Assembly (NCBI RefSeq): GCF_000526995.1
Contig: NZ_AZUI01000001.1
Span: forward strand, 5,374,001-5,438,000
DNA: 64,000 nt
Source of the DNA: Lacrimispora indolis DSM 755
GTDB taxonomy: Bacteria; Bacillota; Clostridia; Lachnospirales; Lachnospiraceae
Direction: 5' to 3'
Shown piece after piece: positions 3,858 to 64,000 of this stretch. Position numbers and translations under genes: made by a program. Positions within the stretch are counted from its first letter, which is position 1, and every line of letters starts with the position of its first letter. The notes under the pieces are model-generated. The model saw nothing but the letters and a program-made list of their open reading frames with translations, ran no database searches and had not been told where the DNA came from.

Positions 3858-3894
3858 AAAAGAGTCAACCAAAACTATATTAGTTGACTCTTTT
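3858..3894. terminator. Bidirectional terminator between PPOX gene and rpoN
   Basis: A perfect 12-bp stem (AAAAGAGTCAAC at 3858-3869 with GTTGACTCTTTT at 3883-3894) and a 13-nt loop, with T-rich tails on both strands. The last rpoN codons are inside the stem. Confidence 0.85.
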
Positions 3895-5250
3895 ATTGAT
3901 ATCATTTTTCACTTTCCGATCAAAGCTGCCGGGAATGCCTATGTCTTCACGATATTTGGCTATAACCCTGCGGGAAAGGTCAACCCCCTTCTTACCCAGT
4001 AATTCTGCCAGCTTTGAATCACTATATGGCTTTTCTTTATTCTCTCCATCCACCAGTTCCCGTATGAATTGTTTAACACCATCCGAATTAATCAAGCTGC
4101 CGTCATTTCCAGGAACTGGCGCTGAAAACAGATTTTTCATCAGAATGCAGCCTGCAGGAAACTGAAGATATTTATCTTTAACAGCACGGCTTATGGTTGA
4201 AGTACTGACTGACATCCTTTCTGCCGTTTGGGTCATGGTGCATGGTTTAAGCTTCCCTGAATACCGGAAAAACTCTTCCTGCTCTTCCAGTATTATATTT
4301 GTTATTTGAATAATCGTCTTACGTCTCTGTTCCACTGCATGAATCAGAAATCTCGCCCGCTCTAATTTTTTCTTAAAATATTCAAAAAGCTCCGGCTCTT
4401 TTACTTCAGCCATCATCTGGAGATAATAATCATTCAATTGATAACTCCCGCACCAATTATCATTGATTTCTATATTCCATTTCCCATCCGTGTCCATAGT
4501 AACGATAACATCCGGTATAATATATTGCTTTTGGCTCTCTCCGAACCCTTGCAGGGGCCTTGGATTTAATGTGCTGATAAGAGCAACATATCTCCTCGCC
4601 TGCGCAGAAGAGATATCAAGCGCACGGGTAATTGAACTGAGCTTTCCCTGAGATACATCTGTTAAATGATGAGAAATAATATATTTTAAGTTTTCATCAT
4701 CCAATCCCAGTATTCCAATCTGAATTAATAAACATTCTTCCAGATTCTTTGCAAAAATACCGGCGGGTTCCAGCTTTTTTAAATCTATTAAACATTTTTC
4801 GATCACCCGCTCACTTGCACCCGTCAGTTGAGCGATCTCCGGAACCTCTAAATCTATAAACCCATTACTATCCAGGCTATGAATTAAAAAATCAATGACT
4901 TTCAATTCTTTATCCGGGTAACGATCCAAGGCCAGCTGATCATAAACGTGGCTATGAATATTTTTAGTGTTTGAGATTTCCAAATCCTGGTCGTTTGTTC
5001 CTATACCTTCTTCATAAAATCCGGCAGAATTAGTTAAAGGCTTACAGTAATTTGACCGATACCAGGTCTGATATTCTTCTTGATCATAAGATTCGGTCCC
5101 AGTATTAGTCTGTTCCAGCAACGGATTTTCCATATATTCATTTTCCATAAACCGGTTCAGCTCGTAATTGCATAATGCAAGCAATTCCAGGGAAGATATC
5201 TGGTTTTGAGACAATAACTGACGCTGTTCAACAGTTAATTTTTGTTTCAT
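3880..5250 (-). CDS. rpoN: RNA polymerase sigma-54 factor RpoN
   Basis: 456 residues, full length. Region I at the N-terminus carries the activator-responsive leucine/glutamine pattern (LTVEQRQLLSQNQISSLELL). The core-binding domain occupies the middle, the helix-turn-helix that reads the -12 element lies near residues 345-370 (QTAERMSVSTSTISRAVKDK), and the RpoN box near the C-terminus reads SRRVIAKYRED (consensus ARRTVAKYRE). It binds -24/-12 promoters and depends on AAA+ activators. Three such activators and three matching promoters are in this window. AGGGAGG-like sequence precedes the ATG. The gene stands alone and ends in a bidirectional terminator. Confidence 0.97.
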   Translation of the reverse strand: MKQKLTVEQRQLLSQNQISSLELLALCNYELNRFMENEYMENPLLEQTNTGTESYDQEEYQTWYRSNYCKPLTNSAGFYEEGIGTNDQDLEISNTKNIHSHVYDQLALDRYPDKELKVIDFLIHSLDSNGFIDLEVPEIAQLTGASERVIEKCLIDLKKLEPAGIFAKNLEECLLIQIGILGLDDENLKYIISHHLTDVSQGKLSSITRALDISSAQARRYVALISTLNPRPLQGFGESQKQYIIPDVIVTMDTDGKWNIEINDNWCGSYQLNDYYLQMMAEVKEPELFEYFKKKLERARFLIHAVEQRRKTIIQITNIILEEQEEFFRYSGKLKPCTMTQTAERMSVSTSTISRAVKDKYLQFPAGCILMKNLFSAPVPGNDGSLINSDGVKQFIRELVDGENKEKPYSDSKLAELLGKKGVDLSRRVIAKYREDIGIPGSFDRKVKNDINKRVN

Positions 5251-9413: not shown

Positions 9414-9430
9414 AGCAACACGTGTGCCAA
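9414..9430 (-). promoter_or_regulatory. Sigma-54 promoter of the C-S lyase operon
   Basis: On the minus strand TTGGCAC (9430-9424), 5 bp, TTGC (9418-9415): an essentially perfect -24/-12 element with correct GG-to-GC spacing. It sits between the terminator of the activator gene and the patB-like start codon. Confidence 0.93.
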
Positions 9431-9603: not shown

Positions 9604-11688
9604 TTAATTAGTTATCCAATCAACTCCCTTTTTGGTAATATTGCTTCCGCCTCTGCCTTTTGTAACAGTTACGTAACCGTTTTCCTCTAACCTGCCTAAT
9701 ATTTTGCGCACCTGAGGCTGAGTTAACTTTATTTCACGCATCTGCGCCTCCAGCAGAATTTTTTCCCGTCCAATGGATTGTCCTCTACGCTCTGCGTCGT
9801 AAAGAATTTCCAGGATCACCTGCTCCTGCTGGGTGGGTGTGTGCAATATAGTTTCATATCGGGAAGGCTTTGTTGAAGTCCGTGGATTCAGCTCTTCCCC
9901 TTTGATCCCGTTTACCTCCTGTCTGTTTTTACGTATACGAAAAACCGGAGGCAGATCATCAATTGTTATTACCGTATGACCGGTAAAACACAAATAATCC
10001 ACAACATTGCGCAGCTCCCGTATATTTCCCGGCCATTCATATTCCCGGAACAGTTCTTTAATATCATCACTTAGCCGAAAGCTTCCCCCCAGCTCTTTTC
10101 GAAAACTGTCCAGAATTAAAAATACATCTTCCTCTCTCTCCCGAAGGGGCGGGATTAACACCGGCAAGGCATTCAGTCTGTAATAAAGATCCTGCCTGAA
10201 AGTGCCTTCCGCTACTTTTTGTTCAAGCTCTTCATTGGTTGCAGCTACGATCCGCACGTCAACATGGATAATTTGATTTCCGCCGACCCGCATAATTTCA
10301 CGTTCCTGCAAAACACGGAGCAGCTTTACCTGCAGGGCCGGGCTCATGCCTTCCACTTCGTCTAAAAACAGAGTCCCCTGATGGGCGAATTCAAACAGAC
10401 CCGGACGGCCTCCCTTTTTCGCTCCTGTAAAGGCCCCTTCTTCATAACCGAACAGCTCACTCTCCAATAAATTCTCCGGCATAGCCGCACAGTTGATCGC
10501 CACAAAAGGCTGGTCCCTTCGCTTTGATGCGTTATGAACGGAGTGGGCAAACAGCTCCTTACCGGTCCCGGTTTCTCCAATTAACAAAACCGGAGATTCC
10601 GTACCGGCCATTTTATTTAAAATAAATTTAGTCTTTAATATGGGGGCAGACTGCCCGATCACATCGTCAAAACAATATTTAGCCCTATGCCCCTGGCCTT
10701 TTTTCATCAATTGAACCCGCAGCTCGTTCTGACGGCGCTCCATCTCATTAAACTTCTGCAAAATGGCAAATGCGCCGACACAGGCATCCCGCCTTAACAC
10801 CGGGCGCACGTAAAGGCTGACTAAATTACCTGCAACTCTTACAACCTGGGGACTCGTTTCCTTTTTCTCTTCTAAGCATCTCCGGAACGGTATATAGGGA
10901 AACACTTCCTCTCCCGCCTTTGAAATGCCGAGATTTTCAGGCACCCGGGTGATATCGGCAGCATTTTTGTTGACCGCATAGATTTCTCCATGTTCATTTA
11001 CAGCGATCACTCCCTGATCAAGTACTTCCATGAGAATATCAAACTGGCTCTCCAGTCTCCTGGAACGGTTAAACATCTCATCAAAATAGTAGGTATTGGT
11101 GCAAACCGACTCCTGATAACGTTTAAATTCAACTTCTTCCAGCAAATCGTCAAAACCAAGCCGGAATGCAGCCTCTATCATTGTATCAGACGAGCAGGTT
11201 CTCTGTCCCAGGTTTATAATTGTGGAAATTCCACTGGGCACATAGCGCTCTTCATCCGGAGTAACAGCAATCTCTGCCATTTCAGTCAGTTTGCTTCCCG
11301 GAGCATAGAGAATAAATTTTAAATGAGTAATTCCCAGCTGTTCCAGCTGCGTCACTGCTTCCCTTGCCATGACCTCAGTGATATTAACGTAAAGGACCTT
11401 CGTGCCCTTTGGAATCTCTTCCAGACGGCGAACAGCTTCCTTTAAATAAGTAACCTGAATTTCCATCCGCTGTGCTTCAGGCGGAATATACCGGTCCGGA
11501 TCCCCCATGGCGTCAAAGGCATCCGTTGAGCCCATAAAAAGATCGCAGGGTTCCATATTTGCTGCCGTTCCATCCATCATGCTGTAGTTTCGTACAACGG
11601 CCCGTTCCCCAAATACTGACCGCACCTGCCTGGCATATGCTTTTCCAGCAAATGGATCCAATGCAATAACCGCAATACTTTTTTTCAT
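9604..11688 (-). CDS. Sigma-54-dependent activator with PrpR N-terminal and PAS domains
   Basis: 694 residues. Residues about 1-190 match the PrpR N-terminal sensory domain, about 210-310 a PAS domain ([18 protein letters not shown]), about 340-570 the AAA+ domain with GETGTGKE (Walker A), [13 protein letters not shown] (sigma-54 contact loop) and [10 protein letters not shown] (Walker B). The C-terminus, after a linker, is a winged-helix region ([19 protein letters not shown]) instead of the usual Fis helix-turn-helix. It lies directly upstream of the sigma-54 promoter of the C-S lyase operon and is almost certainly its activator, comparable in role to C. difficile CdsR. The effector is probably a cysteine-related metabolite (inference). 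Confidence 0.92.
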
Positions 11689-45856: not shown

Positions 45857-47002
45857 TTACCATTCAGCCTTTGTTCCATCATAATGTTTCCAGTTGGGAT
45901 TGGACCAGTTCAGTCCTTCCATAGACACTTCTTTCACCTTTTCTTCGTCGATGATAAGACCCAAACCCGGTTTATCCGGTAAGCCGATAAAGCCGTCCTG
46001 GTACTGGAATATTTCTTTATTTTCTACAAAGTCCAGAAGATCAAAGCCTTTGTTATAATGAATTCCCAGTGACTGCTCCTGGATAAAGACATTGGGGCTG
46101 CAAGAATCAATCTGCAAGGTAGCCGCCAGTGCAATTGGCCCATAGGGAGCATGGGGAGCAGCTGCAATATCATAGGCTTCTGCCATAGCGATAATCTTCC
46201 TGGTTTCCATGATTCCGCCGGCTAAAGCCACATCAGGCTGAATGATATCAATATATCCGCTTTTTAAAATATCTTTAAATCCCCAGCGTGTATAAAGCCG
46301 TTCGCCAGTCGCCAGCGGTGTCACCACATGCTCCGCCACCTCCTTAAACGCCTCCTGATTTTCACAAAGCACAACCTCCTCCAAAAACATCGGCCGGAAT
46401 GGCTCCAACTCCTTTGCCAAAACCTTTGCCATCGGCTTGTGTACACGACCATGAAAATCCACGCCAATATTTAAATCGTTGCCAAAAGTCTCCCGCAGGG
46501 CGGCAACCCGTGCCACCACTTCATCAATTTTCTTAAAATTATCAATATAATGAAGCTCTTCTGTTGCATTCATTTTTACCGAGTCAAAGCCTCTGTCAAC
46601 CCGGTCCTGTGCATCCTTTACCACATCGCTGGGACGGTCTCCGCCAATCCAGGAGTAGACCTTAATCCGTTCCCTGGCGGCCCCACCCATCAAATCATAG
46701 ATGGGGGCATTATAATATTTTCCTTTAATATCCCAAAGTGCGATCTCAAGACCGGAGATGATCGTCATATTAATCGGGCCGCCGCGGAAAAATACACGGT
46801 ATAATTCCTGCCAGAGAGTTTCAATCTCCAACGGATTTCTTCCAATCAGCCGTTTTGCCATTTCCTTTGTACCGGCTACCACTGTCTCGGTCTTCGTTCC
46901 GGAAACCATCTCCCCCCAGCCCTCAATGCCCTCGTCAGTGACTATTTTCACAAAAATCCACCGGGGTTTTACTGTATATACGATTACGTCTGTTATTTTC
47001 AT
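45857..47002 (-). CDS. dgoD: DgoD-like sugar-acid dehydratase (enolase superfamily)
   Basis: 381 residues, close to E. coli D-galactonate dehydratase (382) over its whole length as I remember it. Metal ligands Asp182 (VDFHGRV), Glu208 (FLEEVV) and Glu234 (ATGERL); His184 and His284 (APHAPYGP) are the catalytic acid/base pair of this subgroup. KPRWIFVKIVTDEGIEGWGE at 12-31 and the C-terminal NPNWKHYDGTKAEW also match. It removes water from an aldonate to give a 2-keto-3-deoxy acid. ATG overlaps the IIC stop (ATGA). With a PTS and an aldolase but no kinase in the operon, the true substrate may be the 6-phosphate (inference). Confidence 0.9.
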   Translation of the reverse strand: MKITDVIVYTVKPRWIFVKIVTDEGIEGWGEMVSGTKTETVVAGTKEMAKRLIGRNPLEIETLWQELYRVFFRGGPINMTIISGLEIALWDIKGKYYNAPIYDLMGGAARERIKVYSWIGGDRPSDVVKDAQDRVDRGFDSVKMNATEELHYIDNFKKIDEVVARVAALRETFGNDLNIGVDFHGRVHKPMAKVLAKELEPFRPMFLEEVVLCENQEAFKEVAEHVVTPLATGERLYTRWGFKDILKSGYIDIIQPDVALAGGIMETRKIIAMAEAYDIAAAPHAPYGPIALAATLQIDSCSPNVFIQEQSLGIHYNKGFDLLDFVENKEIFQYQDGFIGLPDKPGLGLIIDEEKVKEVSMEGLNWSNPNWKHYDGTKAEW

Positions 47003-48393
47003 ACTTCTGCTCCTAAACTTACAGCTTCCTTCTGCTTTTTCTCTTCTAATATTCTGGCTCTTTTCTTGTTCAAATTACTCATAAATACCCAGGTACCGGC
47101 GATAGCTGCAAGCAATACCGGAATGCTGATGACCAGATTGCTGATAAATGCTTTGTAAACTAAAAAACTCACAGTCAGGCTGGTTGCCGCAAACGAGGTT
47201 ATGTAACTTCCATCTGCTGCCAGATTTAAGCCAACACTGGTTGCTAACTCGGTAAGAACCGGTGCGGTAGCAGTACCGGCAAGCAATATCACACCAGTAC
47301 AAACAAGCCCCATGATAATATTCTTAAATAAATTGCCCCTTGTAATGGCCACCACCAATGCAACACGGAAGGTTACAACTGCCAGATCAGCAAACGGCAG
47401 AACACGGTTTCCAGGCAGAACAGCTGCCATTAAAATAGTTAAGGGTATAACAATCAACGATGTTGTAATAACATCCGGATTACCAACTACCACTGCAGCA
47501 TCCAGTCCAATAAGAAATTTTCTGCCTTTAAATTTGCTTTGAGTGAATTTTTTTGCCGCCTCGGAAATTGGCATTAAGCCTTCCATAAATAAAGAGGTCA
47601 TCTTAGGAATCAAGACCATAACTGCAGCCATATTCACCCCCAATGCCAGGATTCCTGATACCGGATATTTTGCCAGGGCACCAATGATACAGCCTAATAT
47701 CAATCCCATCATGGTTGGTTCACCGAAAAAGCCTAAATATTTCTTAGCGTTTTTTACATCAAAATTTAGTTTATTAATTCCTGGAATTCGGTCAAGCAGC
47801 CAGTTTAGGGGTGCCGCAATGATCACAGAAGACAATGCGGACATTGTGGGCAGAGAAACACCGGGAATCCCAAAATAGTCTTCTACCAGTGGCGCCGTCC
47901 AGTCAGAGAGTTTAAAGGTAATAACTGCCATTACCACAGTTGCGGCTATTCCCAGAGGTATACTTTTCGTGACATAATAAACCATAATACCGACAATTGC
48001 CATGTGATGATAGTTCCAGATATCAACATCAAGCGTATCCGTTGCCTTAAGTACAAGCATAATAATATTCGTTGCCAGTATACAGAAAATCAAAATAGCT
48101 ATAATTGGTGACGACCAGGTTACCGCTGCAATTGCTCCCCAACCCACATCCAGAATATCAAGTTTAATCCCAAAGTTTTCTACCATGGCCTGGGCAGCCG
48201 GTCCCAGGTTTGATTTCATCATATTGATAACCAGATTAATACCTGCAAAACCGATTCCAATTGTCAGTCCTGAACGAAAAGCTTTTGCTAATTTCACGCG
48301 AAAAATCAAACCGATGACCGTAATAATAATCGGAAGCATCACAACCGCTCCGGCAGCCAAAATCGTATTAAATATAGAATATATAATCTGCAT
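46999..48393 (-). CDS. PTS galactitol-family IIC permease
   Basis: 464 residues from the ATG at 48393 (AAGGAG, 8 bp; a GTG two codons earlier is too close). Around 9-12 membrane segments. Similar to GatC/SgcC: early GLTIGIGFAGINLVINMM, central VVVGNPDVITTSLIVIPLTI. It forms the membrane channel of the PTS with the IIA and IIB genes upstream in the operon; the phosphoryl group passes from IIB. Galactitol-family PTSs take up polyols and some sugar acids. Confidence 0.9.
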   Translation of the reverse strand: MQIIYSIFNTILAAGAVVMLPIIITVIGLIFRVKLAKAFRSGLTIGIGFAGINLVINMMKSNLGPAAQAMVENFGIKLDILDVGWGAIAAVTWSSPIIAILIFCILATNIIMLVLKATDTLDVDIWNYHHMAIVGIMVYYVTKSIPLGIAATVVMAVITFKLSDWTAPLVEDYFGIPGVSLPTMSALSSVIIAAPLNWLLDRIPGINKLNFDVKNAKKYLGFFGEPTMMGLILGCIIGALAKYPVSGILALGVNMAAVMVLIPKMTSLFMEGLMPISEAAKKFTQSKFKGRKFLIGLDAAVVVGNPDVITTSLIVIPLTILMAAVLPGNRVLPFADLAVVTFRVALVVAITRGNLFKNIIMGLVCTGVILLAGTATAPVLTELATSVGLNLAADGSYITSFAATSLTVSFLVYKAFISNLVISIPVLLAAIAGTWVFMSNLNKKRARILEEKKQKEAVSLGAEV

Positions 48394-48417
48394 GATCACT
48401 TCTCCTTAGTTTTATAT

Positions 48418-48696
48418 TTACTTTAACATTGCAATAATTTCATCCAACGTCGCCTCTTCCCCGATTCCGGTCAAAAGAGAGATTGCTCCAATCACCGGGA
48501 TTCCCACATCCCCACCGGTGAACTTTCCTGTCGTAACCAGTAAGTCAAAGTTTTCCGCTTTGGATTCCACTTCCAGAAGCTTACACTGTGTAACTGTAAC
48601 GTCAATACCGCTGTCTTCACATTTCTCTTTTATTTTTGTACCTACCACTGTTGATGTTGCGATTCCATTTCCACAAGCTACTAATATTCTTTTCAT
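48418..48696 (-). CDS. PTS galactitol-family IIB component
   Basis: 92 residues from the ATG at 48696; the frame begins at a TTG four codons earlier, but GGAG spacing favours the ATG. MKRILVACGNGIATSTVV carries the phosphorylated Cys8 in the P-loop typical of GatB/SgcB. Soluble; takes phosphate from IIA and donates it to the substrate in IIC. Confidence 0.92.
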   Translation of the reverse strand: MKRILVACGNGIATSTVVGTKIKEKCEDSGIDVTVTQCKLLEVESKAENFDLLVTTGKFTGGDVGIPVIGAISLLTGIGEEATLDEIIAMLK

Positions 48697-48744
48697 TTCC
48701 TTCTCCAATCTGATCCCGTAATTTTTAAGTACTGCTTTCTGGTC

Positions 48745-48767
48745 AAGCGGATATTCGCAATCCGCTT
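48745..48767. repeat. Palindromic intergenic repeat, copy 2
   Basis: AAGCGGAT and ATCCGCTT arms around ATTCGCA; on the minus strand it is followed by TTGACC. The same element is at 2619-2641. It lies in the 100-bp gap between the IIA and IIB genes, where the hairpin could tune expression within the operon. Confidence 0.5.
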
Positions 48768-48795
48768 CGCTGCTTGATTCGGTTAAATTTCATAT

Positions 48796-49263
48796 TTACT
48801 GCTGTAATAGATGGCTGGATATCATATCGTAAACAGGTTTTGTATCGCTGGCTGTTACGATTTTTTTTAAATTCTCCTGATCTTTTATTAACTCCACAAC
48901 CTTTTGAAGCATCTCCAAATGACCATGTGCCTCTTTTAATGCCAGGATGATGATGATATTCACATCAATTTGATGGTCCGGTTCATCCATCGCACTGAAT
49001 TTTACCGGTTTTTTAAGAATTCCCACACAGATTGCTGCCTGATTGACATAACTTGTATCCGCATGGGGAATTGCTATATTGATTTCACCTGTTGACAGAC
49101 CTGTCGGGAACATAGCCTCACGCTCCAGAATAGCCTCTTTATACCCCTTTTTCACATACCCTTTATCCAGCAAATAATCCGTTAGCTGGGTCAGTGCTTC
49201 GGTATTTTCCTCTATTCCTTCCAGCTCCAGTATCAATGATTCATCAAAAACTATTTCGCTCAT
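48796..49263 (-). CDS. PTS IIA component (fructose/galactitol type)
   Basis: 155 residues, PTS_EIIA_2 fold. INIAIPHAD puts the phospho-accepting His at residue 67; GILKKPVKFSAMD and HLEMLQKVV are typical of the GatA/FruA IIA domain. It receives phosphate from HPr and passes it to IIB. Starts 12 bp after the aldolase gene. Confidence 0.92.
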   Translation of the reverse strand: MSEIVFDESLILELEGIEENTEALTQLTDYLLDKGYVKKGYKEAILEREAMFPTGLSTGEINIAIPHADTSYVNQAAICVGILKKPVKFSAMDEPDHQIDVNIIIILALKEAHGHLEMLQKVVELIKDQENLKKIVTASDTKPVYDMISSHLLQQ

Positions 49264-49275
49264 TCATATTCTCCT

Positions 49276-49893
49276 CTATATCAGCTGCTCTGTCAGCTTC
49301 TGTACAGATGCTTTCAGCCCGGACAGATTTTCACCGATTATATCCTCTTTTTTAAACAATCCGGAACCTATTCCCGCATAAGCAGCCCCGGCATCAAAAA
49401 ACTCCTTGACATTACTGCCGTTTACACCGCCTACTACCATCAGAGGAAGCTTGCCAAGAGGTGCCTGAATATCCTTTAAATAAGCTGCTCCCATAATTCC
49501 TGCGGGAAACAGTTTGATAATATCTGCTCCATCCCTTATGCCCTGCATAATTTCTGACGGAGTCAGAGCCCCAGGGACAGAAATAACCCCCTGTTCTTTG
49601 CATAACTCAATAATTTCCTTACTGAATGTAATGGGAGATAATAAGAATCTGGCACCGGCTGCAATTGCTGCATCGGCCTCCTCATAGGTGGTTACCGTCC
49701 CGGCACCGACCAGTATATCATTACCGAATTCCTTACTGATGCTTTTGATAATCTCAATCGCATCAGGAGTATTCATTGTAATTTCTACTGATTTTATTGC
49801 GGTGCCGAGAAGACTTTTCACCACGGTTCTGATTTGAGAATGGGTATACCCTCTCAAAATGACTGTAATCTTTGGAAAATCTTCCTTTTTCAT
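49276..49893 (-). CDS. KDPG/KDPGal aldolase
   Basis: 205 residues, class I aldolase. Schiff-base lysine in IIKLFPAG at Lys127, catalytic Glu38 in SVEITMNTP, GAGTV at 63-67, and GALTPSEI. The KLFPA form resembles DgoA (KDPGal aldolase) as much as Eda. It splits the phosphorylated keto-deoxy acid into pyruvate and glyceraldehyde 3-phosphate. First gene of the operon; AAGGAG lies 8 bp before the ATG and a sigma-54 promoter about 40 bp upstream. Confidence 0.9.
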   Translation of the reverse strand: MKKEDFPKITVILRGYTHSQIRTVVKSLLGTAIKSVEITMNTPDAIEIIKSISKEFGNDILVGAGTVTTYEEADAAIAAGARFLLSPITFSKEIIELCKEQGVISVPGALTPSEIMQGIRDGADIIKLFPAGIMGAAYLKDIQAPLGKLPLMVVGGVNGSNVKEFFDAGAAYAGIGSGLFKKEDIIGENLSGLKASVQKLTEQLI

Positions 49894-49930
49894 CTTTCCA
49901 CTCCTTTCTTGCCTCTACGCTATTATATAG

Positions 49931-49947
49931 AGCAAGAATCGTGCCAA
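49931..49947 (-). promoter_or_regulatory. Sigma-54 promoter of the PTS-aldonate operon
   Basis: On the minus strand TTGGCACG (49947-49940), then TTGCT (49935-49931): a consensus -24/-12 element. It directly abuts the stop codon of the LevR-type activator gene. Confidence 0.95.
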
Positions 49948-49948
49948 C

Positions 49949-52861
49949 TTAATTGACCGGTTTTGTGTCCAGACGAAGATTTTCCCTGATTTCATTGATA
50001 GAATTGCTGTTTCTTATTAAACTTACCAGGTTTTCGCTGCTTAACATCTGATAAAGCTGTTCAAAATATTTTTTTGAATTTTCATCCAAAGCCAGTACAA
50101 AGATCAGATCGACCGTATTTGTACCATCCCACATCACTGGTTTGTCAAGTTTTGTTATCGATATGACTGGTTTTGTAACACTGGCCGGATCACCGTGTGG
50201 AATGGCTATACCACCTTTTAAATAAGTGGTCATCATTCCTTCCCGTTTATAAACACTTAGTAAAAACCGCTCGTCCACATATCCCTCGCTTGTCATCGTC
50301 TCGATCGCCTGATCTAAAAGCTGTTCCTTTAACCGGAATGGCGGGTTCACAAAGATCAATTCCGGTGTAATGACCTCACCAAGAATGACATGATCCAGCA
50401 ATAGGCTGTTTTTAATGATTTTACGCAGTTTTGAGATACCGGAAGACTGATAGATATCATCCAGGGAAAGAAATGGAATATTTTTTACTTCCGGATTAAT
50501 TGTCCCGACAATCGCAAGGATTTCATATTGAGCCGCTTCCTGCAGAATGATTTGTTCCACGTCTTCATTTTCTATATAGCCTCTGTTTATGATAACAATA
50601 TTGTCCAATACTGATTTTAACCGCTCTGAGATAAAATCCCGAAGCAGCTTTGCTGCTCCCTGTCCGGTGATACACAGACAAAGAACCGCTCTTTTATGCT
50701 GAATTTTATTATATTTAGCTGTTTTAGGCTGCAATGTTTTTTTACTGTCAAGTTCATCTACAATTGTTTCAATTGACTCTTCTGTCCAAAGTACTTTATG
50801 AAGGCACTCGATCACCATTAAGGTGTCCACCCTCCCGCAGACAGCAACCGGAATTTTTGTCTCCTGCCTGATCTTCTCTGCAAAAGTCAGGAGTGATCCC
50901 ATATCTGCAAGCAGGATGCAGCCTCGTCCCTGGTTTCTTTCGATTACCAGTTGTTTTGTTTTCTCATAGGCAGCCGCCGGATCCTCACTCAAAGCCATCT
51001 CCAAAGCTGCGGCGTGGTTTACTCCCAGAATTTTATTGGCAACCTCTGCCATTCCCCCTGCTACTCTTCCATGGGACAGCACAATCACAGCTGTTTTTCC
51101 TTCTGTATCAACCTGTCCTACCTGAAACTTACTGAGATACATTGCCAAAAAGACTGCCTCGTCGGCTGGAAGCATCACATAGAATTTATCATTGACCTTA
51201 TCAACGATATGAGCTGCAACTTTATATTCCTTTGCATGCCGCTTTTTAATTTCTTCAAAACTGCTTCCAAGCGCCACTTTTCTCTCTTTGGTCATATCCA
51301 GTGACGCGCGAATATGAATGGCCATGGGAAAAATAATCGTATCTTTAAGTCCCGGTAATTCTTTCTGCGCTTCCTGATATATATATTCCGTTATCTCCAG
51401 TACATCTTCTCCCACGATTGCGGACAGCTCATGCAGGCTGAATTTGGACTCTTCCATTTTGCGAATCTGCTGAACCAGCGTTGTTTCAACCTCATCTTGC
51501 AAGATCCTGCTGATTTCCTCTGCTGCTACCCCATTTTTCAAAAGCTTTGTATACCTTTCTTCCAGCTGTTCGTAAATACCGGTACCGCTCATCTTGTGTA
51601 AACGTCCTGAAAACTGCTGGTATCCCGCCTCTGAAAAAAGGACATCCCCGCTGATTAAATGCCGTATACCATTAGGAACCGATTGATTGATGCAGCTCTT
51701 TAAGTGCTCCGGAAGGTTATCCGCAACTACATCTATCGCTGTTTTATTATGAAGCTTTGCCTCTAAGAATGCCTTCGCACAGCAAACCTGGATATCTGAT
51801 TTCAGCTGACCGATATTACCTGGAAATTCCGCCAAAAGCAGACAGTTTAATACCGACTGGTTTACACGGATATCACGGCCAAGCCGTTCCCTTTCCATCG
51901 TAAGATAAAACTCGATAAACTGCCATTTTTCCTCCAGAGGCCGTTCTGTCAATGCCGGAATTTCAATGCTCATTGGAATCCGCCGGCGAAACGTTAAAAG
52001 CAGCGAGCTTTCCGGATCCTCCGTCGTTGCCGCTATAATTAAGGGGTGGCTTTCACGGCTGGTTTCTGCTTCTCCCAAACGGCGGAACTTGCCTTTATCC
52101 ATTAAGTAAAACAGGATTTCCTGCCCTTCTGCGGGAAGCCTGTGCACTTCATCCAGAAACAAGATACCGCCGTCACACAACTCAACAATTCCCTTTTTAT
52201 GTTCAGTTGCTCCTGTAAATGCTCCCTTCGTATATCCGAATAATTGAGCCAGGAGCAGCTGAGGATTATCAGCATAATCAGCACAGTTAAACTCGAAATA
52301 AGGAGCCTCTTCCTGGAAATTATCCGTTCTGACTGCAAAATCATGCATCAGCTCTGCCAAAAAACTTTTACCAACACCAGAAGGACCATATAACAACGTA
52401 TGCAGCCCTTTTGGTGGATACATTACTGCCGCCTTTGCCTTACTGATTTGATTTTTCAGACTACCGTCTGAACCGATAATCTTATGGAAAATGTCATCTT
52501 GAAATTCCAGCTTATTATCGCTGACCGGTGTTTCATCCTGAGAATATTTAATCACCGGCTCCCATATTTCAGGGTAAGATTTATGCAGCTGTCCGACGGT
52601 AAATTTTCCGATCTTAAACCCTCGTTGTTTTAGTAATTCTGCCAATTTACGATCTGATACCAATCCCATTTCATAAAATAAACCTTGGATCTCCTGAAGC
52701 AATCGTTCTTTTCTACGTTCCGATGAAGCAGGGATTCCAGTTTCTATCCGGACTTTTGTTATAGTTTCGCGCAGTGTTCCCAATTCATCGGCAATGGCTT
52801 CATCCGTAAGAGGATTCCGCTTATCCTCCTGCCCGATTATTAACTTTATTTTGTCCCTCAT
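49949..52861 (-). CDS. LevR/DgaR-type sigma-54 activator with PRD and PTS domains
   Basis: 970 residues. Order: N-terminal helix-turn-helix region (1-110); AAA+ domain with GPSGVGKS (Walker A), FGYTKGAFTGA (sigma-54 loop) and GGILFLDEVHRL (Walker B) at about 125-370; PRD1 at about 460-570; IIA-Man-like domain (VIVLSHGRVAGGMAEVAN) at about 590-690; IIB-Gat-like CITGQG region at about 735-830; and a C-terminal IIA-Fru-like domain with GGIAIPHGDP (phospho-His). Activity is set by PTS phosphorylation: active when the operon's sugar is transported and PTS proteins are dephosphorylated. It adjoins the promoter it should activate. Confidence 0.95.
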   Translation of the reverse strand: MRDKIKLIIGQEDKRNPLTDEAIADELGTLRETITKVRIETGIPASSERRKERLLQEIQGLFYEMGLVSDRKLAELLKQRGFKIGKFTVGQLHKSYPEIWEPVIKYSQDETPVSDNKLEFQDDIFHKIIGSDGSLKNQISKAKAAVMYPPKGLHTLLYGPSGVGKSFLAELMHDFAVRTDNFQEEAPYFEFNCADYADNPQLLLAQLFGYTKGAFTGATEHKKGIVELCDGGILFLDEVHRLPAEGQEILFYLMDKGKFRRLGEAETSRESHPLIIAATTEDPESSLLLTFRRRIPMSIEIPALTERPLEEKWQFIEFYLTMERERLGRDIRVNQSVLNCLLLAEFPGNIGQLKSDIQVCCAKAFLEAKLHNKTAIDVVADNLPEHLKSCINQSVPNGIRHLISGDVLFSEAGYQQFSGRLHKMSGTGIYEQLEERYTKLLKNGVAAEEISRILQDEVETTLVQQIRKMEESKFSLHELSAIVGEDVLEITEYIYQEAQKELPGLKDTIIFPMAIHIRASLDMTKERKVALGSSFEEIKKRHAKEYKVAAHIVDKVNDKFYVMLPADEAVFLAMYLSKFQVGQVDTEGKTAVIVLSHGRVAGGMAEVANKILGVNHAAALEMALSEDPAAAYEKTKQLVIERNQGRGCILLADMGSLLTFAEKIRQETKIPVAVCGRVDTLMVIECLHKVLWTEESIETIVDELDSKKTLQPKTAKYNKIQHKRAVLCLCITGQGAAKLLRDFISERLKSVLDNIVIINRGYIENEDVEQIILQEAAQYEILAIVGTINPEVKNIPFLSLDDIYQSSGISKLRKIIKNSLLLDHVILGEVITPELIFVNPPFRLKEQLLDQAIETMTSEGYVDERFLLSVYKREGMMTTYLKGGIAIPHGDPASVTKPVISITKLDKPVMWDGTNTVDLIFVLALDENSKKYFEQLYQMLSSENLVSLIRNSNSINEIRENLRLDTKPVN

Positions 52862-53010
52862 AACGCTCCCTACCTCACTAGTATATAATTTTTTGTTCTT
52901 AAAATGATTCTATCACCATGTTATAATATCCGCAACTCTACGCATAGAGAAAGTCTGCACAGATAACTCTTAAAGAGAAACTCACCCTTGTTCAACAGGC
53001 TAATACCCAT

Positions 53011-53053
53011 AAATAAAAGGGACTGTGCACTAATCAGTGCAACAGCCCTCTTT
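53011..53053 (-). terminator. Terminator of the 6-phospho-beta-glucosidase gene
   Basis: GTGCACT/AGTGCAAC core with outer AAAGGGACTG/CAGCCCTCTTT arms; the minus strand ends in TTTTATTT. It lies about 80 bp downstream of the stop. The rest of the gap to the activator start shows only the activator's promoter region. Confidence 0.75.
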
Positions 53054-53132
53054 ATCCCCTTCATAAATAAACACAACCGTCCCTCAGATTTCGCAAGCCT
53101 GTCCTGCCAGCCCTTAAATGGGTCTATCAGCT

Positions 53133-62482: not shown

Positions 62483-62499
62483 AGCAATTTCCGTGCCAA
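62483..62499 (-). promoter_or_regulatory. Sigma-54 promoter of the adh-liv-dhaKL operon
   Basis: On the minus strand TTGGCACG (62499-62492), 4 bp, TTGCT (62487-62483): consensus -24/-12 element with correct spacing, about 60 bp before the dehydrogenase start. Confidence 0.95.
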
Positions 62500-62610: not shown

Positions 62611-64000
62611 TTAAACTTCTTTATTGAGACGCCTGTACAGAGTAGCCAAACTAATTCCCAGATTCTTAGCCGCCACCTTCTTCCCCTCTGTCGTATTTCC
62701 GTATTTTTTGATTGCTTCCTTTATCTGAGCCATTTCTACGGTTTTCAAGTCGCATCCCCCGCTAATCTGTTTTGTCACAGGAACAGACGGTGTTTTAACT
62801 TCCAATATCTGAACCGGCAATGAACTGATTCCTATACCACCAGACAGATTATCCGCGCTCATGGATATCATATACTGAACCACATTTTCCAGTTCCCGTA
62901 TATTGCCCTTCCACTGGTAGCGGCAGAGATAATCCATGGCTTCCTTCGAAACCTCCTCCACATTAACCCCAAAAAATGAACGGTATTTATTCATAAAATA
63001 TCGTACCAGGAGAGGAATATCCTCCGGACGTTCCCGAAGAGGAGGAAGGTGAATTTCAAAAATATTAAGTCTATAATACAAATCCTCCCGGAACTGTCCT
63101 TCATCCACCATTTTTTCAAGATCCTTGTTAGTAGCTGATATAATACGGATATTTAAGTCAATCTGTTTACTACTGCCCAATCGATCCAATTTACGTTCCT
63201 GAAGGACCCTGAGAAGTTTCGCTTGAAGATGGAACGGCATATCCCCTATTTCATCCAATAAAATCGTTCCCGTATTAGCCATCTCGAATTTTCCGATTTT
63301 TCCGCCTTTTTTTGCGCCTGTAAATGCTCCCTCATCATAGCCGAACAATTCTGACTCCAGAAGTTCCATGGGAATCGCAGCACAATTTACAGTAATAAAC
63401 GGATTCCCGCAACGGTCTGATGCATTATGTATGGCTCTTGCAAACATTTCCTTTCCGGTTCCGGTTTCACCAGTCAATAAAATATTGGGCATGGTCTTGG
63501 CCACCTTATTTGCAATATCCTTAAGGCGCCTCATATGCATGCTTTCTCCCAGAATATTATCAAAAGTGATCTGATTTTCACGATACGCCTCGCCAGCAAC
63601 CCGGCTCCCCACATTCTTAATTGTTTTAAAATTCAGGATTTTAGCCAAATCCTCACGCCCGTTAGCCACCTTATAAAATAAGGCACCATAGCTTTCTTTT
63701 CCAATTGTTATATTTTCATATATATTGACACTTTCTTCCATAATCATATTATGGAAGACCGGATCAGGTATTAAGTCCAAAATATTCTTTCCAATAGCTT
63801 CCCCTTGCTCCATCTTAAAAAGATTCATTGCCTTTTTATTGATATTACATATGATATTATTTGCATTTAAAAGTACATATCCATCTGATATCTGCTCCAG
63901 CACCTGATTTAACACTTGATTCTGGTTATCTAACTTCCTGTAAATGACTTGTTCTTTACGGCGCACATCTTCTTCTTTTAATTTGAGTTCAATCAGTTCA
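62611..64000 (-). CDS. Sigma-54-dependent activator, PAS-AAA+-Fis (5' end outside window)
   Basis: The open frame continues through the right edge (codons ahead of the GTG at 63966 are in frame: E-L-I-E-L-K-L-K-E-E-D), so the N-terminus is missing; what is visible starts with a coiled coil and a PAS domain (QISDGYVLLNANNIICNINK). AAA+ domain: [31 protein letters not shown]-terminal Fis-type helix-turn-helix (AKNLGISLATLYRRLNKE). It lies directly upstream of the sigma-54 promoter of the adh-liv-dhaKL operon and is its probable activator. An additional N-terminal sensor is likely. Confidence 0.93.
   Translation of the reverse strand, partial: ELIELKLKEEDVRRKEQVIYRKLDNQNQVLNQVLEQISDGYVLLNANNIICNINKKAMNLFKMEQGEAIGKNILDLIPDPVFHNMIMEESVNIYENITIGKESYGALFYKVANGREDLAKILNFKTIKNVGSRVAGEAYRENQITFDNILGESMHMRRLKDIANKVAKTMPNILLTGETGTGKEMFARAIHNASDRCGNPFITVNCAAIPMELLESELFGYDEGAFTGAKKGGKIGKFEMANTGTILLDEIGDMPFHLQAKLLRVLQERKLDRLGSSKQIDLNIRIISATNKDLEKMVDEGQFREDLYYRLNIFEIHLPPLRERPEDIPLLVRYFMNKYRSFFGVNVEEVSKEAMDYLCRYQWKGNIRELENVVQYMISMSADNLSGGIGISSLPVQILEVKTPSVPVTKQISGGCDLKTVEMAQIKEAIKKYGNTTEGKKVAAKNLGISLATLYRRLNKEV

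Follow-up and report, generated by a model that had tools for sequence, protein, structure and literature searches.

How does a bacterium consume a sugar acid if the operon for it encodes a dehydratase, an aldolase, and a transporter, and no sugar-acid kinase? This question is raised by a cluster of six genes from Lacrimispora indolis DSM 755, at 5.42 Mb in a genome of 6.38 Mb (one contig). We analyzed a stretch of 64,000 nucleotides (nt) around it, which we will call the window (contig NZ_AZUI01000001.1, positions 5,374,001 to 5,438,000). On the minus strand, the cluster encodes, in that order, an activator, an aldolase, the IIA, IIB, and IIC components of a phosphotransferase system (PTS), and a dehydratase that is similar to DgoD, the D-galactonate dehydratase. 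We propose that the PTS, which is driven by phosphoenolpyruvate (PEP), would import a hexonate, most likely D-galactonate, and would phosphorylate it at C6 during transport. The DgoD-like enzyme would then dehydrate the aldonate 6-phosphate. Our best guess is that it converts D-galactonate 6-phosphate to 2-keto-3-deoxy-6-phosphogalactonate (KDPGal), in which case a kinase for 2-keto-3-deoxygalactonate (KDGal) would not be needed. We consider it probable that the substrate is phosphorylated and that the acid is galactonate.

An earlier note on the window, made from the DNA sequence alone, had placed these six genes and named their families, and both the open reading frames and the family profile scores agree. 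The first gene (49949..52861, minus strand, as for all six) encodes a LevR/DgaR-type enhancer-binding activator for sigma-54, of 970 amino acids, with Sigma54_activat, PRD, EIIA-man, and C-terminal PTS_EIIA_2 domains; GAFTGA can be seen in its translation. It is not DgaR itself by the equivalog model NF047795 (482.9 bits, cut-off 1400). Just past its stop codon there is a -24/-12 (sigma-54) promoter, TGGCACGATTCTTGCT (49931..49946, minus strand), which matches the consensus at 10/10 scored positions; the note, too, had called it a consensus promoter. (Sites that score 9-10 occur 7 times in the whole window, counting both strands, and a score of 10/10 occurs three times.) Next come the genes for an aldolase of the type that acts on 2-keto-3-deoxy-6-phosphogluconate (KDPG) or KDPGal (49276..49893); for a IIA of the EIIA_2/galactitol-like type (48796..49263); for a galactitol-like IIB (48418..48708, but by eye, an ATG near 48696 is the likelier start); and for a IIC of the GAT family (46999..48399; 288.6 bits for the Pfam model EIIC-GAT, cut-off 24.2). 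IIA and IIB were assigned by family profiles. The histidine in AIPHAD of IIA and the cysteine in VACGNG of IIB are presumably the phosphorylation sites. The last gene, which overlaps the stop of the IIC gene by 4 nt, encodes the dehydratase, a member of the enolase superfamily with 381 amino acids (45857..47002), which we propose to be an aldonate-6-phosphate dehydratase.

A scan of genome contigs found 459 relatives of the dehydratase, and we kept the best 80 to compare their loci. These comprise a PTS clade of 46 loci (L022-L067; at least 66% identity) and a neighboring clade of 34 loci (L068-L101; at most 63% identity). A PTS IIC is encoded in the fetched flank of 42 of the 46 loci of the PTS clade and of 0 of the 34 others (Fisher P ~ 1e-18 with the window counted, a statistic that ignores relatedness). 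Most of the PTS-clade loci with a IIC also hold the aldolase, IIA, and IIB. As for the exceptions, contig ends truncate L059, L064, and L065, while L024, from Caldibacillus and with a late-starting dehydratase, has no PTS in 4.4 kb. In a quick tree with the loop columns masked, a branch of length 0.46 separates the PTS-linked sequences from the rest, with a support of 100 (Shimodaira-Hasegawa-like approximate likelihood ratio test, SH-aLRT). We also observed that L025 (Streptococcus parasanguinis) and L026 (Enterococcus lactis) have identical dehydratases and a common gene order over about 15 kb, which may reflect transfer or a contaminated assembly.

The carriers themselves are diverse. Four groups can be told apart among the IIC proteins from loci of the PTS clade. 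Branches of 2.3, 2.9, and 4.0 changes per column lead to three of these groups, although the joins of such long branches are unsure, as the program warned. All four groups adjoin the same dehydratase clade. In Enterococcus malodoratus (L037), the dehydratase lies among those of other enterococci while the IIC belongs to another group, so carriers have been exchanged. That the carrier varies while phosphorylating import is constant is our strongest argument that phosphorylation would matter to the dehydratase.

One of the four groups of carriers has a further gene, of the PTE family, which is present in 11/11 loci of that group and in 0/32 others (including the window, which has no counterpart). 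The two proteins that we tested contain PF02126. With the protein from L049 as the query, the best match in PDB, and hence the nearest solved relative, is 3pnz, which we take to be Lmo2620, the subject of Xiang et al. 2012; by its title, that study reportedly concerns the "hydrolysis of phosphorylated sugar lactones." The PTE-family protein is well below the cut-off of the NCBIfam model for phospho-furanose lactonase (138.3 bits, cut-off 630). The gene lies between the genes for IIC and the dehydratase in L063, and it overlaps the stop of the dehydratase gene in L037. Its presence would fit the import of a lactone as its 6-phosphate. We found no convincing sigma-54 sites before the 11 PTE-family genes (the best scored 8/10, in L050).

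We then asked how the dehydratase of the PTS clade differs from its relatives. The earlier note had described its metal and histidine residues as complete, and indeed, what we take to be the metal ligands and the two catalytic histidines (D182, E208, E234, H184, and H284) are invariant in an alignment of 82 sequences, 47 from the PTS clade and 35 others. The lid is altered, and in capping loops of the kind that the note had pointed to. Residues 34-38 are S-G-T-K-T (codons at 46889..46903, minus strand, counted by hand from the gene start), and this is a signature of the PTS clade: S-G-T-[KR]-T, with one G at position 34, versus [VI]-E-G-[RK]-A in the other clade. In other words, the capping-loop motif E-G-[RK]-A, which is our own criterion and which is found in the other clade and in DgoD from Ralstonia pickettii (PDB 3rr1), is absent, and residues 35-38 are G-T-K-T. 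R. pickettii DgoD keeps E-G-R-A and also a longer loop before F71; in the PTS clade, one residue is deleted before position 70. Residue 12 is K in 45/47 sequences of the PTS clade (with one R and one gap) versus P in 29/35 others. Beside H284, the PTS clade has A285 and Y287 where the other clade has C and L, and L260 replaces H in 44/47 sequences. Overall, 5 of the 15 near-fixed differences lie within 29 capping-loop residues (P = 0.003, with the loops picked after the alignment had been seen). At 13 of the 15, 3rr1, the outgroup, has the state of the non-PTS sequences, so it is the PTS clade that is derived.

In an AlphaFold2 model of the dehydratase (from 37 sequences; mean pLDDT, the predicted local distance difference test, of 88.7, with loop 312-318 poorly modeled), S34-K37 make up the loop just before helix 38-49. 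Such a position often binds anions. The changed lid residues may contact the far end of the substrate and form a putative phosphate pocket. Out of 7919 database relatives, we compared the best 120: SGTKT is found in 117 and SGTRT in 2 (the other was not scored). Of the named proteins, the one with the highest score comes from Lacrimispora celerecrescens (97%), and proteins of the PTS clade from Enterococcus (including E. faecalis), Clostridium, and Trichococcus are among these 120 as well. The linkage to the PTS, the divergent carriers, the changed lid, and the relative of a lactonase in one group of loci all support the note's proposal that the acid is phosphorylated on import and that a DgoD-fold enzyme dehydrates the 6-phosphate.

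The regulatory arrangement is also conserved. An AAA+ activator with GAFTGA, a PRD, and EII domains, followed by a -24/-12 promoter and PTS genes, places the operon in the LevR-type sigma-54/PTS class, and the genome has two genes for sigma-54 (rpoN). The activator would sense phosphorylation by the PTS and, with sigma-54, would turn the operon on. All 22 of the LevR-preceded operons that we scanned, including the one in the window, have a sigma-54 site that scores 8-10 out of 10, and in 20 of them the site is 1-33 nt past the stop of the LevR gene (the exceptions are L022 and L055). We also scanned 19 operons that are not preceded by a LevR gene, and 17 of them have no site that scores 8 or above. 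The remaining two are L061 (9/10), where the opposite strand carries a LevR-like gene, and L032 (8/10). In 15 loci, the aldolase gene is preceded by a Mga/PRD/EIIA-type regulator instead (the domains were tested on the one from L025). Judged by its sequence, this is a genuine, conserved sigma-54/PTS operon. The earlier note had viewed all of it as one transcription unit with a terminator, which needs correction on both counts. The activator gene precedes the sigma-54 promoter, so it is outside of the sigma-54 transcription unit. Directly after the dehydratase gene, we found no terminator: positions 45870-45740 (131 nt) fold like shuffled sequences (z = -0.17). The nearest terminator-like site downstream is at 45350-45326, about 500 nt away, and a strong hairpin at 53000-53080 (z = -3.16) belongs behind the gene that is upstream of the operon. 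The gap between the IIA and IIB genes (48709-48795, minus strand) contains a hairpin of 8 pairs without a run of T; a stretch of 101 nt there has z = 0.49 relative to shuffled sequences.

Several observations weigh against our proposal, and the first concerns what the dehydratase acts on. A curated model, NF010624, identifies it as D-galactonate dehydratase (DgoD), with a score of 611.1 bits that is well above the cut-off of 311, and differences that are specific to a clade can follow from ancestry alone. The enzyme might use the free acid, D-galactonate, as it does in E. coli. In that case, the PTS would be non-phosphorylating, or its product would be dephosphorylated, and DgoK or KdgK would phosphorylate KDGal. 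A hydrolase of the HAD family is encoded behind the dehydratase in six loci (L022, L023, L028, L033, L034, and L039), which would suit this explanation, but phosphorylation followed by dephosphorylation would waste PEP. The confinement of the lid changes to the PTS clade and the relatives of a phospho-lactonase in related loci also argue against it.

This explanation needs a kinase. None of the six genes encodes one, and the window contains no DgoK- or KdgK-like match, so the operon does lack a sugar-acid kinase, as the earlier note had stated. The genome does not: the search that the note had suggested for a kinase of 2-keto-3-deoxygluconate (KDG) found two candidates. At 5.64 Mb, a KdgK-like PfkB kinase, nearest to the model for bifunctional KDG/KDGal kinases (258.5 bits, cut-off 440), is encoded beside an aldolase. 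At 1.09-1.10 Mb, a second DgoD-like gene is next to an ABC transporter, and a divergent gene pair there encodes an aldolase and DgoK (DgoK is at 1.10 Mb). Either kinase could serve the operon in trans. The DgoD-like protein of the DgoK cluster keeps E-G-R-A, which is a contrast within the same genome. This second protein (L102 9002-10168, minus strand) deviates at otherwise invariant places, for example with YRSIHGD and HDASD, and it has a very long branch. Going by these deviations, its substrate may not be D-galactonate, although genes for DgoK and an aldolase adjoin.

Near the related operons, we sought DgoK- and KdgK-like kinases only. Neither type was found inside the operons of the PTS clade, while a KdgK- or DgoK-like gene is nearby in 18 of the 34 loci of the neighboring clade. 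Five PTS loci (L028, L033, L034, L039, and L056) have a KdgK-like gene within the flank but outside of the operon; four of the five genes are upstream of the activator and beside an aldolase of their own. Another point against our proposal is that L033, L034, and L039 have a gene of the glycerate kinase family about 1 kb downstream of the dehydratase. On balance, the operons without a kinase and the altered lid make the use of free D-galactonate improbable.

We also surveyed kinases across genomes. For this, we took 32 loci from the PTS clade (of 46) and 26 from the neighboring clade (of 34), which gave 31 and 25 genomes to search, since the genome of L040 was left out and L071 and L079 come from one genome. 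Among the genomes of the PTS clade is that of L024, the locus that has no PTS. DgoK is absent from 29/31 genomes of the PTS clade, but also from 22/25 genomes of the other clade. A KdgK-like gene was found in 15/31 versus 20/25 genomes, and this search missed one, in G030. When we examined six genomes with no KdgK match in more detail, G030 had a KdgK-like gene (91 bits), G014 had a PfkB relative (47.7 bits), G006 had a split PfkB relative (35 and 19 bits), and G004, G010, and G024 had nothing above 16 bits. Of these, G004 (S. parasanguinis) is doubtful, as its locus is L025, which matches the Enterococcus locus L026. With DgoK missing about equally in both clades, we rejected genome-wide absence of kinases as a proof, and the absence of kinases from other genomes is weak evidence for the proposed route.

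Which acid is it? The aldolase is below all NCBIfam cut-offs, including that of NF006600 for the KDPGal aldolase DgoA (150.5 bits, cut-off 207). In the E. coli KDPGal and KDPG aldolases, the site V154/T161 affects stereochemistry (PMC4915726). The aldolase in the window has the KDPGal-type valine at this site (it is the second V of MVVGGV). We aligned 48 aldolases from loci of the PTS clade, 42 of which go with the dehydratase, and of these 42, 41 have V and one has I (L050). A more distant aldolase in L065 also has V, and five aldolases have T: four that are beside KdgK-like genes (L028, L033, L034, and L039), and the second aldolase of L058. In L. indolis itself, this site is V in the DgoK-linked aldolase and S in the aldolase beside the KdgK-like gene. 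The earlier note named the type of aldolase correctly and left KDPGal or KDPG open; the valine favors KDPGal. Because dehydration erases C2 and C3, the aldolase is informative about C4 only. Among the neighboring clade's aldolases near DgoD-like genes, 17/22 have T and 5/22 have V (including three beside DgoK, in L086, L097, and L098), so a DgoD-like gene alone does not predict V, and by these sequences it would be no proof of the galacto configuration.

The acid that enters through the PTS and is phosphorylated by it might also be a different hexonate, such as D-gluconate or another epimer, with the dehydratase converting its 6-phosphate to KDPG or KDPGal. The low scores of the aldolase and the frequent T in the other clade are compatible with this, and since the types of IIC differ so strongly, some of them may carry other acids or lactones. 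Also, six loci of the PTS clade (L055, L058, L059, L062, L064, and L066) have a gene similar to altronate or galactarate dehydratases; four of these loci have a SAF-domain gene and five have genes for 2-hydroxyacid dehydrogenases. In these loci, a further acid perhaps feeds the same aldolase. However, relatives of the altronate/galactarate-dehydratase-like gene are also within the flanks of 11/34 loci of the neighboring clade, so this link is not specific to the PTS. Against another hexonate, the family of the dehydratase is annotated as specific for D-galactonate, 41/42 aldolases have the valine, and the IIC is nearest to galactitol carriers. The end of galactitol that is phosphorylated by its PTS matches the C6 end of D-galactonate. 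We think that another hexonate is unlikely, though less so than the use of free D-galactonate, and we continue to favor D-galactonate 6-phosphate.

The similarity of the IIC to galactitol carriers could instead indicate that an unrelated polyol, for example galactitol itself, is what the PTS imports, and that the dehydratase and the aldolase are bystanders or act later. The IIC does match the model for the galactitol subfamily, TIGR00827, but its score is below the cut-off (428.8 bits versus 542.2), so by this model it is not the galactitol PTS proper. Also weighing against our proposal is a zinc dehydrogenase that recurs in three loci (L058 216-1268, L061 10808-11860, and L066 10918-11967), all with one group of IIC, and that stands directly before IIB-IIC in L061 and L066. 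The carrier of this group may import something other than an aldonate. The zinc dehydrogenase is below every NCBIfam cut-off (for galactitol-1-phosphate 5-dehydrogenase, 126 bits versus 550). We had considered the statement that no polyol dehydrogenase recurs in these loci, and these three loci rule it out. The remaining 43 loci of the dehydratase clade yielded no relative of this zinc dehydrogenase, and the sole match in the window is a zinc dehydrogenase gene 9 kb upstream. In a 2018 paper on E. faecalis, dgoD, the PTS-Gat components EIIA-C, and eda are listed among blood-specific genes, and the dehydratase and the PTS are read as galactose/galactitol metabolism (PMC6042284). As listed there, these are probably the same gene set, seen before. 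Given that the set of aldolase, PTS, and dehydratase persists in many Firmicutes, we view an unrelated polyol as very unlikely, the least likely of the three alternatives.

The window has other features that relate to sigma-54. One of the two rpoN genes is at 3880-5250 (minus strand; 346.9 bits for TIGR02395, cut-off 277.35), downstream of a gene for an enhancer-binding activator and of a small cluster of metabolic genes; the genome carries its other copy near 2.01 Mb. A -24/-12 site at 9429 scores 10/10 and lies just after a sigma-54 activator gene (9604-11688, minus strand) whose best match is PrdR, below the cut-off. It precedes genes of the aminotransferase and dicarboxylate symporter families and a gene for a pyridoxal phosphate (PLP) enzyme. 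The third 10/10 site, at 62498, is behind what by eye is a sigma-54-activator-like gene (62611-63966, minus strand), and it precedes a zinc dehydrogenase gene, genes that by eye resemble branched-chain-type ABC transporters, and a Dak1 gene.

More broadly, we lean slightly towards a view in which this is a widespread and unrecognized route in anaerobic and lactic Firmicutes. The dehydratase would be the enolase-superfamily counterpart of 6-phosphogluconate dehydratase, and would have evolved once from DgoD, by rebuilding of the lid into a phosphate pocket. It would then have been paired with PTS carriers of three or four divergent types, one of them for a lactone and with its own phospho-lactonase, and galactonate and related acids would be burned without a sugar-acid kinase. 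If this is true, many proteins that are labeled as "galactonate dehydratase," for example in Enterococcus, Clostridium, and Trichococcus, are annotated with an incorrect substrate, and the transporter, the energy yield, and the need for a kinase are incorrect in metabolic models of those bacteria. This would also be a clean case of substrate switching, with the lid changed in one clade and the catalytic core untouched. To our knowledge, this would be the first enolase-superfamily dehydratase for a phosphorylated aldonate. In open-licence PubMed Central, with most subscription journals outside that scope, we found no publication that describes a PTS for galactonate or a dehydratase for phosphogalactonate, and Table 1 of a survey of sigma-54 in Clostridiales lists no such regulon (PMC6615313, section 7).

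How does the operon compare to known systems? In the D-glucosaminate system of Salmonella, the lyase is a PLP enzyme. By the title of Miller 2013, the PTS of that system is reportedly of the mannose family. As described in PMC4987338, the dga operon is similar to ours in having a LevR-like activator, sigma-54, and import of a sugar acid by a PTS, and it differs in that the acid is an amino-sugar acid.

With the classical D-galactonate pathway, the operon shares a DgoD-fold dehydratase and a KDPGal-type aldolase, and it would yield the same end products. In E. coli, the classical pathway comprises DgoT, DgoD, DgoK, and DgoA. The L. indolis operon differs from it in having PTS components as the transporter, no KDGal kinase, and a dehydratase with a changed lid, and we propose that the order of phosphorylation and dehydration is reversed. 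Because the kinase and a non-phosphorylating transporter are both missing from the operon, it is not a classical galactonate operon. A gluconate PTS can be combined with the Entner-Doudoroff pathway via Edd and Eda, in which a 6-phospho-aldonate is dehydrated and then cleaved by a KDPG-type aldolase. Edd is an iron-sulfur enzyme of the IlvD/Edd family, while the dehydratase here belongs to the enolase superfamily; even so, the operon would work like a galacto version of the lower branch of the Entner-Doudoroff pathway.

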